Notes under the pieces: generated by a model
What the model was told of the DNA's origin: nothing
Seen by the model: only the letters and a program-made list of their open reading frames with translations
The model's database searches: none
Shown: positions 19,610-34,587 of the stretch, piece by piece
Numbering within the stretch: position 1 is the stretch's first letter
Layout of the letters: each line of letters starts with the position of its first letter
From: a virus
IMG/VR virus record: IMGVR_UViG_3300032605_000046
Span: 1-43,082 of that record
DNA length: 43,082 nucleotides
Strand: one strand, 5' to 3'
Made by a program: the position numbers and the translations under genes

Positions 19610-19777
19610 TTATTTTTTAGCTTTCCATTTACGTTTAACCAGTTTTTCTACTTCATTTGCAAACTGATCACCATACTCTTTTCTAAACCATGCTAATTGA
19701 CTGCGCCTACTTTCTAACAATATACATCTTAAAACGCTTTCTACTGCTTCATCTATTGTTGCTAGTCTATATTTCAT
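19610..19777 (-). CDS. Small hypothetical protein (55 aa)
   Basis: ATG 19777 to TAA 19610 encodes MKYRLATIDEAVESVLRCIL, then ESRRSQLAWFRKEYGDQFAN and VEKLVKRKWKAKK. The helical pattern ending in KEYG-x-x-FAN-x-V-x-x-x-V-K-x-K-W-K is one I associate with small phage proteins. The ribosome site is weak. The gene sits at the edge of the long non-coding stretch and may be the first real gene of the middle operon. Confidence 0.5.
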   Translation of the reverse strand: MKYRLATIDEAVESVLRCILLESRRSQLAWFRKEYGDQFANEVEKLVKRKWKAKK

Positions 19778-20274
19778 AAATTTTTCGGCAATAAAAGGTC
19801 TAATGATGGGTTTGCTTGATACCCACCATATCTACAATAATAAATACCATTAAGGCAGAGAATAATCATTTAGCAATTCTTATATAAGCTGTGAATTCAG
19901 TCTTGCTCAAGGACTTGTGGCTCACCAGACCACCCATAAGGATCAAGCATTATCTTTCTTTGTAAGTCAGAACTTCTCTATTCCTCTTACCAGCCGCCAT
20001 CAAAAGGCTGTTAGCTAAATCTTTCCTAAACATTTCAGTCTAGTATCTGCTTTCTTTGTCAGCCCTCGCAGTCACAGGCATTGCTTTATTGATTTTCCGA
20101 ACAGTAGAATGACAGACGTAAAAAAACCACTTGGCTTATGTACCCTGCCGCCCCACGACACGTTAATTTAATAACTGGATACATAAACCAAATGGCTCTT
20201 TGTACTTTATTGACGTGGGGCATCAATGGATACAGAATAATTCACTATTAAATAAATTGCAACTATTTATTAAA
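19778..20274 (-). other. Long intergenic stretch with mini-ORFs and structured RNA
   Basis: About 500 bases lack a normal gene. On the minus strand there are short frames: 13 codons (starting MPVTARADKESRY), 27 codons at 20033-19950 (MFRKDLANSLLMAAGKRNRE, then VLTYKER), and 17 codons at 19950-19897 (MLDPYGWSGEPQVLEQD). The last two are joined by a TAATG junction. Hairpins include CAGCC/GGCTG in the 27-codon frame and GGTGGGT/ACCCATC near 19800-19822. A pseudoknot-like element is listed separately. It may be a leader, an ncRNA gene, an origin, or a decayed gene. Confidence 0.5.
20120..20221 (-). ncRNA. Pseudoknot-like structured RNA ending in a U-tract
   Basis: On the minus strand GCCCCACG (20221-20214) pairs perfectly with CGTGGGGC (20157-20150). 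CCATTTGGTTTATGTATCC (20195-20177) pairs over 18 bp with GGTACATAAGCCAAGTGG (20144-20127), with two G-U pairs and one bulged base. The two helices interleave as in an H-type pseudoknot. Seven U residues (20126-20120) follow the second helix directly. The two non-Watson-Crick positions are G-U only if the minus strand is the RNA, which sets the direction. It starts 54 bases after the stop of the 88-residue gene. Confidence 0.6.
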
Positions 20275-20541
20275 TTATTTTCTTTTAATAAAATCATTAG
20301 CTGAATAAGACCTTAAAGTGCCATCATACCAAGTAGTCATTACATAACCTTCAGCAAAGAACCAGCAGCCAAATACAACATGCCCCGCTGAATCTTGAGC
20401 AAAGATTACATATTTATTAGATTCATTAGTGCATAAAGTGTCTGTGGCAATTATTTTACCGCCAGCATCGTTTTTCATTTCCCATGATTGCGCTTGGGCC
20501 ATATTTGAAACTAATAATAAAGCTAATAATAATTTATTCAT
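20275..20541 (-). CDS. Small secreted protein with signal peptide (88 aa)
   Basis: MNKLLLALLLVSNMAQAQ is a clear Sec signal peptide, with likely cleavage after AQA. The mature part (about 70 residues) has two cysteines (DTLCTNES; FGCWFFAEG), which could form a disulfide, and is rich in beta and aromatic residues (AEGYVMTTWYDGTLRSYS). It is the second gene of the unit led by the HTH regulator, 9 bases downstream. A periplasmic protein expressed early could be involved in exclusion of other phages or envelope change. That is a guess. The family is not recognised. Confidence 0.65.
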   Translation of the reverse strand: MNKLLLALLLVSNMAQAQSWEMKNDAGGKIIATDTLCTNESNKYVIFAQDSAGHVVFGCWFFAEGYVMTTWYDGTLRSYSANDFIKRK

Positions 20542-31472: not shown

Positions 31473-32152
31473 TAAGTAGCCTGTGTTTGAGCAGTTAAAA
31501 TACCATTAACAAAAGTCATGCTTCCTTGCGTACCTGTAAGAGTTAAAGCAGCAGTAGTAATAGTAACAGAAAGCCCACTACCAAGCCCTAAATTCGTTCT
31601 AGCACCAGACGCTGTTGTTGCGCCTGTACCGCCATGCAGAACAGCAATAGTAGTAGCGTTCCAAGTTCCAGTTGTAAGCGTTCCTACGCCCGTAATTCCA
31701 GTATAAGAGCCAGTTAATACAGAGCTTGGCAAAGTTCCTGATGTAATTTGATTGGCATTAATAGAAATAGGCGTTTGAGTAATTTGCGTTAATATGCCAT
31801 CTTTATTAAAAGTAATTTCTGGAATGGTTGATGCTGAACCATAAGTGCCAGCTTTAATATTAGAGTTACCTGCTGAAAGCGTAATAGAACCTGCTGCATT
31901 AACAATGCTAATACCTGCACCAGCAGTCAAAGTATTAAGTGTATAGCCTGTGCCATCACCAATTAATAATTGACCATTAGAAGGCGTATTATTAACGCCT
32001 GTGCCACCTGAAATATGCCCTAATGGCGTTGCTGAAGTAAATCCAACAACACTAGGGTTTTGCATCCAAAGTAACCAGGGAAGTGATGGCCTTCCTGTAT
32101 ATTCATCAAGGAAAGGACTTTGAGGCCAATTAATATTGGTATTTACACTCAA
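31472..32152 (-). CDS. Short fibre-type tail protein (226 aa)
   Basis: The N-terminus NINWPQSPFLDEYTGRPSLP followed by WLLWMQ is probably a virion-docking segment. The rest is fibre-like, Thr/Gly/Ser-rich. It has the ISGGTG and LHGGTGATTASGARTNLGLG motifs common in fibres. Residues ~130-170 (NQITSGTLPSSVLTGSYTGI, then TGVGTLTTGTWNATTIA) match a segment of both large fibres. It overlaps gp10-like by 4 bases. Likely a short tail fibre or tail-needle-associated protein. Confidence 0.65.
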   Translation of the reverse strand: MSVNTNINWPQSPFLDEYTGRPSLPWLLWMQNPSVVGFTSATPLGHISGGTGVNNTPSNGQLLIGDGTGYTLNTLTAGAGISIVNAAGSITLSAGNSNIKAGTYGSASTIPEITFNKDGILTQITQTPISINANQITSGTLPSSVLTGSYTGITGVGTLTTGTWNATTIAVLHGGTGATTASGARTNLGLGSGLSVTITTAALTLTGTQGSMTFVNGILTAQTQAT

Positions 32153-34587
32153 CTGTCTGCCCCTTCTGCTTTTAAGTTAGCACTAACAATCACCGCTTTA
32201 ATCGGATCAGATACTACAACTTCAAAAATCCTATCTCGTGACCAGCCCAATCTGCGCCAAATAATACGGAATTGATATTGTCCTACCAAACCAATACTAG
32301 ACCAATGCTCATTAGACCATGTAGAACCGCCATCATTAGACCAGCGTAACATTGCTTGTGGGTTTTGCCCTTGTCCTAATTGCAAGCCAACACCAGGCTG
32401 GAATTGTAATTGTAATTCGTGAAAGTATTGACGTTGAAAATCTGATACTAAATGCGGTGCTCTGCGTAATCTGCGGATTGTAGTTCCGTTGTCTGTATAA
32501 ACTTCATTATCTAGCTGATAGATTGTACCGCTACGATAATCGCCTACTAAATAAACATTATTAAAAAACGCACCACAATTAGACCAATGTCTGTGATAGC
32601 CAGTAACTGAGTCGTAAGATAGCCACTTATGCCACATCTTAGTTGTCAGATCGAATACCCAAGTCAAATCAAGAGAAGGGAATGTAACAACGTACATTTC
32701 ATGGCCTTCTAATTGATATGTGTATGCAATTGCATCCTCAATAGGCTGATTCATTAAAGTCTGTTCTACAGCGTGTGTAGATAAACGAGTAAAGCTATAG
32801 CCTTCCATCATGCCAATAATGGCTTGACCACGAGTATCTCGGCTAACAAACATAAATTGATTAGAGAACCTAGCTACAGAAAAAGGTGCTGCAATACCAT
32901 GTTGAACTGATGTGCCTGGTATTCTTGAGAATGGGAAAGATACAACGCCTGATAATTGACTGCCTACATCAATCCACGTTTCAGAAGTAAACTCACCTAA
33001 TAAGTAAACTTGTCTGCGATCAATAATCAAACTGACTAACGGGTCAGGAGAACCATCTTTAGTGCCGTAATAAGCATTGTATGAGAATGGACTACCTACA
33101 TCACTTGCAGCAAAGTTTTGAGTGCCAACTTGATTGTAGATAATATAATTATCCATTACTCCAACTACAGAAGCACCCTGCCAAGGGCCATCAGTATCAG
33201 GAAGCTGAAACCAAGTAGGACTAGTGTAAGTGACTGAACCACCCAAACTATAAGAACTAATGCGATAAGTACCCAAGCCGCCATCAATTGCAGATACTTG
33301 GTCAGTAATTGTAAATGTTGTAAAACCATTTTTTAACACCCTTCCTACACCCAAAGCACCATTAGTGGCAGTAACATCAAATACTTGATTGCCTAAAACA
33401 ACGGAAGTTGTAGCACCTGATCCTAAAACATTATCTGTAATAGTGACGGCTGGCGTTGTTAAATAGCCAGTACCTTCATTATCTAAAGTAAGGGATTCAA
33501 TTGTTCCACATGAGCCTTGAACAGTTACAATACAACTAGCACCAGGGCCACCAGTATCGGTCACAGTCGCAGTAGGATTTGAATTGTATCCTGACCCATA
33601 GCTTACAATGTTAATGCCTGTTACAACGCCACCATTTTGCGTTAAAAGGGCATTGGCTGGATAACCTGCATACAAAAGCACAGCCGTTCCGTCAGCTTGT
33701 GAACCGCTAGTAAATGCTGGAGCTACAGTTCCTGTCGTTCCTGCGGTAGTAACTGTATAAAGATTATTGCCGTAAAATAATTGTTGGCCTACAGTATAGG
33801 TCGTTGAAGCTACCCATTTAGTACCAAACACAATGGTCGGAGTAACATAACCTGTACCGCCATTAGTAATCGTTGCGCCTGTAATGGTTTGATTAACTAA
33901 AATGGTTAATGATGCAGCAGTACCAGCAAAAGCAATTGTTGCTGTGCCGTCAGAGGCAGTTCCTGATGTAATAGTCGGGCCAGTTGTGCCTGATGTGCCA
34001 CCTACTGTGTAAGTGTAAAGATAACCACCATAATAAACTTGCTGACCTGCTGTATAAACAGTTGAAGCTGTCCATTCATTGCCAATTGATACAGTAGGGG
34101 AATTATAGTTAGCACCAGCGTTAGTTAAAGTAACTGATGTTACAGAAGCACTTTGATTGCCTGTGACTGTAAAAGTAGTAGAAGTTCCTGCAATCCATGT
34201 ATATCTATTTACACCATCGACTATATAAGCAGTTAAACCGCCATAAGTCATAATGTTGTCAGTAATAGATACAGGGCCTGTAGAAGTGGTTAGCGTACCA
34301 ATTAAAGTAGTATTCCATGAATTATCCACAGAATAAACATTACTACCAACTACAGCGAGTAACCATTGACCGCCTGATAAAGTGTAAATTGCACGAGTTT
34401 CGCCTGTGCCTAAATTAAGTTTTTCTACTAAACCAGGCGTGGGATAAAGTGAAACAACACCACGAGCAGGTGGATTTGATGATGCTTTAGTTATATCAAT
34501 TTCAGGAAAGAAATTAATGCACTCCTCTGCATTTTGAGTAATTGATGGCGCAACATAACTAGGGCCGATAAATCCAAAATCAGGCAT
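32149..34587 (-). CDS. P22 gp10-like head-completion protein with large insertion (812 aa)
   Basis: The ends match the gp10 (packaged-DNA stabilisation) family: FGFIGPSYVAPSITQNAEEC, NFFPEIDI and YPTPGL at the start, and RQVYLLGEFTSETWIDVG, RIPGTSVQHGIAAPF and FDLTTKMWHKW later. P22 gp10 is about 470 residues. Here residues ~140-455 are an inserted beta-rich region. It has four G-x-GY-x-x-P-x-x-x-I-type units (near 158, 244, 331, 372) and two CBM5/12-like segments (W172 and W258, each followed by Y-x-x-GQ-x-x-YYG). It should plug the portal/gp4 stack, and its insert probably faces outward. Confidence 0.82.
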   Translation of the reverse strand: MPDFGFIGPSYVAPSITQNAEECINFFPEIDITKASSNPPARGVVSLYPTPGLVEKLNLGTGETRAIYTLSGGQWLLAVVGSNVYSVDNSWNTTLIGTLTTSTGPVSITDNIMTYGGLTAYIVDGVNRYTWIAGTSTTFTVTGNQSASVTSVTLTNAGANYNSPTVSIGNEWTASTVYTAGQQVYYGGYLYTYTVGGTSGTTGPTITSGTASDGTATIAFAGTAASLTILVNQTITGATITNGGTGYVTPTIVFGTKWVASTTYTVGQQLFYGNNLYTVTTAGTTGTVAPAFTSGSQADGTAVLLYAGYPANALLTQNGGVVTGINIVSYGSGYNSNPTATVTDTGGPGASCIVTVQGSCGTIESLTLDNEGTGYLTTPAVTITDNVLGSGATTSVVLGNQVFDVTATNGALGVGRVLKNGFTTFTITDQVSAIDGGLGTYRISSYSLGGSVTYTSPTWFQLPDTDGPWQGASVVGVMDNYIIYNQVGTQNFAASDVGSPFSYNAYYGTKDGSPDPLVSLIIDRRQVYLLGEFTSETWIDVGSQLSGVVSFPFSRIPGTSVQHGIAAPFSVARFSNQFMFVSRDTRGQAIIGMMEGYSFTRLSTHAVEQTLMNQPIEDAIAYTYQLEGHEMYVVTFPSLDLTWVFDLTTKMWHKWLSYDSVTGYHRHWSNCGAFFNNVYLVGDYRSGTIYQLDNEVYTDNGTTIRRLRRAPHLVSDFQRQYFHELQLQFQPGVGLQLGQGQNPQAMLRWSNDGGSTWSNEHWSSIGLVGQYQFRIIWRRLGWSRDRIFEVVVSDPIKAVIVSANLKAEGADS

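Follow-up and report, generated by a model that had tools for sequence, protein, structure and literature searches.

Structured small RNAs carried by phages are a known kind. The CI RNA of phage P4 is an immunity RNA, and in lambda the late promoter pR', under Q, is followed by the 6S RNA and the terminator tR'. The element described here resembles this lambda region in having a putative promoter, a short leader RNA and a terminator-like end ahead of phage genes, but it differs in that pR' is a late promoter under Q and in that we know of no comparable knot at pR'-6S RNA-tR'. Its place is presumably the one where lambda has nutR and tR1, and the putR site of HK022 lies just past cro. Its position in the early right operon and its terminator context are similar to those of HK022 putR and lambda nutR-tR1. 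The putR site is reported to lie ~270 nt past the start of PR, and the put RNA to have ~70 nt with two stem-loops (PMC9378689). The canonical form of our element has two pseudoknots, an apparent promoter of its own and a U run instead, and the RNAfold structure of the element studied here is not one of two stem-loops in ~70 nt, as put is defined. What would be new is a family of RNAs with two supported pseudoknots, a probable own promoter and a Cro-adjacent place. No title or abstract beginning in the literature searched describes such an RNA; papers under subscription were outside this scope, so its absence from print is not established. Rfam 15 gave no match at the gathering score, either in the window or in 15 loci. 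At an E-value threshold, the element and locus L025 returned miRNA, snoRNA, sRNA and RAGATH-6 matches far under their gathering scores, and the weak same-strand overlap with RAGATH-6 (RF02686; 18.2 bits, where the gathering score is 170) was discarded as chance.

The window, i.e. the whole stretch analyzed, is a single virus record, 43,082 bases long, that encodes a P22-type portal, NinB and NinG. The element lies on the minus strand (20226-20120), in a gap bounded by the gene of an 88-aa protein (20275-20541, minus strand) and a short ORF starting at 19777; no ORF of 60 aa or more was found in 19779-20274, only short ones. A hairpin, H1, and a long helix, P2, interleave by pairing of the H1 loop with a loop inside P2, every arm having been checked by script. 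Read on the minus strand, the short helix joins 20221-20214 with 20157-20150 over 8 bp (GCCCCACG/CGTGGGGC). Seven of these eight pairs are better represented by a contact of two loops (PK1), between the 5-bp hairpin H1 (20226-20210, stem TTGAT/GTCAA, 7-nt loop GCCCCAC at 20221-20215) and a hairpin loop internal to P2 that carries the partner GTGGGGC (20156-20150). P2 joins 20195-20177 with 20145-20127 in 19 pairs, with three departures from Watson-Crick pairing, each a G-U when read on the minus strand and an A.C on the plus, and it is followed by the U7 run (20126-20120). The sequence-only reading had described interleaved helices of 8 and 18 bp, a U7 end and two such departures: both helices, their interleaving, the U7 and the strand pattern stand, while the long helix and its departures have to be recounted as 19 and three. 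Its description as a pseudoknot with a terminator-like end agrees with the H1 loop-P2 loop contact and the U7. Also on the minus strand, P2 encloses the hairpins P3 (20175-20162, GTTA/TAAC) and P4 (20160-20146, TGTC/GGCA), the loop of the latter being the PK1 partner; RNAfold, which disallows pseudoknots, folds the P4 stretch slightly differently. The A-rich AAAGAG just before P2 (20201-20196) could extend this helix by pairing with the U run.

The minus-strand fold is stronger than any of 200 shuffles (RNAfold z -6.62), compared with z -1.85 and 9 of 200 shuffles as good for the plus strand, these z values ignoring the interleaved helix. In a descriptor scan for long-loop stems before a T run, covering both strands of the window, 8 stems were found with that of the element on top (42.0); second place (29.5) goes to a stem that lacks interleaved pairing, and among the other stems that have some the highest score is 27.0, with 6 pairs. 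The descriptor is weak alone, since other contigs, 417,352 bases in all, also give 19 matches.

A search with the 88-aa protein returned six loci, four of them close, and these were used to follow the pairing at the same site. Loci L003 and L004 carry the same element. In L003, P2 is that of the window, while the H1 loop and its partner (GCCGACA/TGTCGGC) differ, as does P3 (ACCT/AGGT). In L002 every helix is changed, with PK1 TGTCGGG/CCCGACA, P3 GGTA/TACC and P4 TACTG/CAGTA, and L005, from a near-identical phage, has at this site what we call the canonical form, with PK1 TTGGCGG/CCGCCAA. Both PK1 partners are thus changed together in L002, L003 and L005. Between the window and L003, PK1 and P3 each show four double-sided changes, and P2 is the same in both (pairs counted by eye). 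Excluding gaps, differences from the window in the gene, the element and the downstream stretch number 17 of 267, 48 of 102 and 2 of 317 for L002, and 10 of 267, 21 of 100 and 6 of 311 for L003. The element, in which up to 48 of 102 bases differ between near-identical flanks, has thus been exchanged or has diversified fast, with double-sided changes preserving its pairing. Fold z values at these loci are -6.6 (window), -6.0 (L002), -7.6 (L003) and -3.5 (L005). Covariation in relatives had been proposed as a check: changes at paired positions are compensated, and uncompensated change was not seen. Together with the strand difference in fold strength, this agrees with the selection on minus-strand RNA that had been suggested from the letters. 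The ligand-sensing attenuator that was also considered finds no support, close relatives differing wholesale in their pairing sequences. Further relatives were sought by DNA searches, and none was found in phages with the window element region; a search for the window-type P2 arm returned 23 stretches, of which only L009, the contig of L002, is real.

A 3' RNA of the secreted-protein gene had also been considered. This is not supported, because a promoter-like sequence lies between the gene and the element in the window, L002, L003 and L005. In the window it consists of a -35-like TTGCAA (20262-20257, minus strand) and, after 17 nt, a -10-like TATTCT (20239-20234), with a predicted start at ~20227; the counterparts are TTGCAA-17-TATATT in L002 and TTGCAT-17-TATATT in L005, and TTGCA is kept in L002, L003 and L005. 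It matches 8 of 12 consensus bases, under the cut of the promoter scan. Since it ends just before H1, the element is probably the gene of a small RNA and not a 3' tail.

For the canonical form, a gapped pattern requiring TTGGCGG, CCGCCAA and T6 was matched in at least 120 stretches of the viral collection, holding 126 matches among those listed. Of these listed matches 92 passed the fold filter and 34 failed, and removal of near-copies left 48 representatives; L077, among the 92, looks like a chance match. Forty-one of the 48 were aligned (alignment A2), L040, L048, L049, L077, L091, L104 and L112 being omitted for length or odd form. In these 41, from the matches listed, the structure of H1, P2, P3, P4 and two pseudoknots has 97.1% of its cells paired, against 77.1% in shuffled controls and 32-48% for slid versions, and double-sided change is seen in 33 of the 41 base pairs. 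The pairs that never vary are six of PK1, one of H1 and one of P3. TTGGCGG, CCGCCAA and T6 are invariant because the set was collected with a pattern demanding them, so the constancy of PK1 is an artefact of collection. A second pseudoknot, PK2, between the linker and the P3 loop, is supported by the alignment: it spans 3-7 bp in all 41 canonical rows among the matches listed, and the exact run averages 5.80 bp, compared with 3.19 once the partners are permuted (0 of 2000). The shuffle controls leave the relatedness among the sequences in place. Read by eye, no convincing PK2 was found in the window, L002 or L003. Double-sided change also reaches PK1 where the pattern had fixed it, in L213 (TTGGTCG/CGACCAA), and a further version of the architecture was found in L172 (3815-3955, PK1 GTGAAGT/ACTTCAC), after what we read as the C-terminus of a Cro-like protein. 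This one lies elsewhere than the match of the scan for canonical elements with another PK1, in which none of 27 stretches had a canonical element at the match.

A DNA search with the canonical element gave two Manatee Spring records in phages and none in plasmids. Two related Manatee Spring phages (portal 66% identical) have the same architecture, again with TTGGCGG in the H1 loop. The canonical element is also supported as having an upstream promoter: with the -10 placed -21 to -13 from the loop, a sigma70 promoter with at least 8 of 12 bases was found in 29 of 47 representatives among the matches listed (those of the 48 with enough upstream sequence), where shuffles give 2.0 on average and 6 at most. 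Nine genome contigs also matched the canonical pattern; seven are chance matches in our own reading, and only L151 and L153 have both fold and promoter.

The genomic position is recurrent. Of the 92 elements two are cut by contig ends, and 85 of the other 90 have an ORF starting 4-15 nt past the U run; the upstream ORF stops within 20 nt of the element in 58 of the 85 with a near upstream ORF, both counts being among the matches listed. In the window, by contrast, the next clear gene is far downstream. One upstream protein matches P22_Cro and several others are alike by eye. Among the downstream proteins tested there are matches to DUF1376/primosomal, replication-initiation, ParB-like, HNH/NUMOD4 and, weakly, GIY-YIG families. 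The canonical element often has a Cro-like gene on one side and a replication gene on the other. In a Polynucleobacter genome it is flanked by a gene whose sole family match is phrog_2529 and by a replication gene, and the opposite strand carries a CI-like HTH gene.

A covariance model (R1) matches L005 (105.3 bits), L151, L156, L153, L025 (50.7) and L026 (34.5) and, once and weakly, L149 (19.5 bits, E 0.047); none of eight further phage regions is matched. In bacterial genome sets it matched 3 of 398, 1 of 369, 2 of 399 and 1 of 186 genomes, each count including the Polynucleobacter genome that was the centre, and it added L162, L163 and L213 from that genome's family and order. L162 and L163 were found without the TTGGCGG pattern and have no long U run; in both, the match (1501-1604) has a short hairpin, GGTCTTTCCGAGACC, in place of the U run. 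The window element gave no match with default filters and 10.7 bits with filters off, a weak match that is the best of its 401-base stretch. It has a PK1 like that of the canonical form, the H1 loop reaching into the P2 multiloop over 7 bp with compensated changes in relatives. Given only 10.7 bits, it is to be taken as a divergent relative and not as a proven canonical member, an assignment suggested by its position, promoter-like sequence, end and architecture.

We regard it as probable that the element is a ~107-nt minus-strand small RNA gene with a promoter and a terminator-like end, a variant of a widespread phage RNA that likely works as a conditional terminator. What the sequence analysis shows is the fold, its strand, the covariation, the promoter enrichment and the genomic position. 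Transcription, termination and any regulatory effect are here deduced from position, and the most likely function would be to govern the early operon, as a terminator and as a small RNA. A sigma70-type promoter just before H1 would give the minus-strand RNA, whose hairpin loop is predicted to be tied by the loop-loop pseudoknot to the multiloop of the long terminator-like helix. Placed typically between a Cro-like regulator gene and replication genes in the early right operon, the knotted structure and the U run may form a conditional terminator of early-operon transcription that holds back the replication genes, while the terminated product from the own promoter may accumulate as a stable RNA. 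This combination of conditional terminator and stable product is preferred because it uses all the parts. A strong intrinsic terminator whose loop is unusually long and structured, with neither RNA gene nor regulation, would suit the GC-containing stem with U7 and its place between two genes; such a terminator, however, needs no conserved hairpin outside the stem, no two covarying pseudoknots and no promoter ending at the 5' edge, and we find this reading unlikely. The stem and U run of a terminator are there (the 19-bp P2 and U7), while the short loop is absent: the P2 arms lie 31 nt apart, and a terminator scan with loops of 3-8 nt misses the element. The proposal of a terminator in the sequence-only reading is likely right, for only part of the object.

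The Cro-adjacent place also recalls antitermination in cis of the HK022 put kind, in which RNA polymerase, once modified by the nascent RNA, reads through the terminators that follow; put, with putR ~270 nt from the PR start in a similar place, has ~70 nt and two stem-loops (PMC9378689), against a larger, knotted RNA ending in a U run, and this we hold to be very unlikely. A regulatory RNA acting in trans, such as an immunity RNA like P4 CI whose changing loops set specificity between related phages, would account for the promoter-like sequence and for pairing sequences exchanged between otherwise near-identical phages. It is quite unlikely considering that PK1 is constant in all 41 aligned canonical examples among the matches listed, though by selection, and that the scan for other PK1 sequences gave no canonical element at the match in any of its 27 stretches. 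Improbable to a similar degree is the broader idea of a large, undescribed class of phage small RNAs sharing architecture and not sequence, acting in trans as self-recognising regulators of the early operon. Exchangeable loop pairs would here enable an RNA from a phage that is resident or co-infecting to pick out nascent transcripts of its own kind, and to determine whether the replication genes are transcribed. On the preferred reading of a conditional terminator with a stable product, the locus offers a testable case of phage RNA folding that gates replication genes, and another of why a base-paired sequence is exchanged so fast while its flanks stay fixed. The RNA is common in environmental viral DNA, as seen in the at least 120 stretches found with one pattern, and has relatives in many other water phages.

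Some minor observations were made along the way. The ~300 nt downstream of the window element (19780-20095) have neither a long ORF nor a fold signal (z -0.6), and vary less against L002 (2 of 317 positions) than the neighboring gene does (17 of 267). Elsewhere in the window, 32149-34587 has a CBM_5_12 carbohydrate-binding match at 25.9, just under the Pfam cut-off of 26.2. HNH or GIY-YIG type genes often start right after the RNA (L037, L102, L133, L162, L163 and others, mostly by eye). At canonical loci, the gap ahead of the next start codon offers a pairing partner for the 3' arm of P2 together with the U run, with a mean of -5.07 kcal/mol against -3.72 when permuted (0 of 300), as calculated on 43 of the 48 representatives among the matches listed, with the relatedness among them retained.
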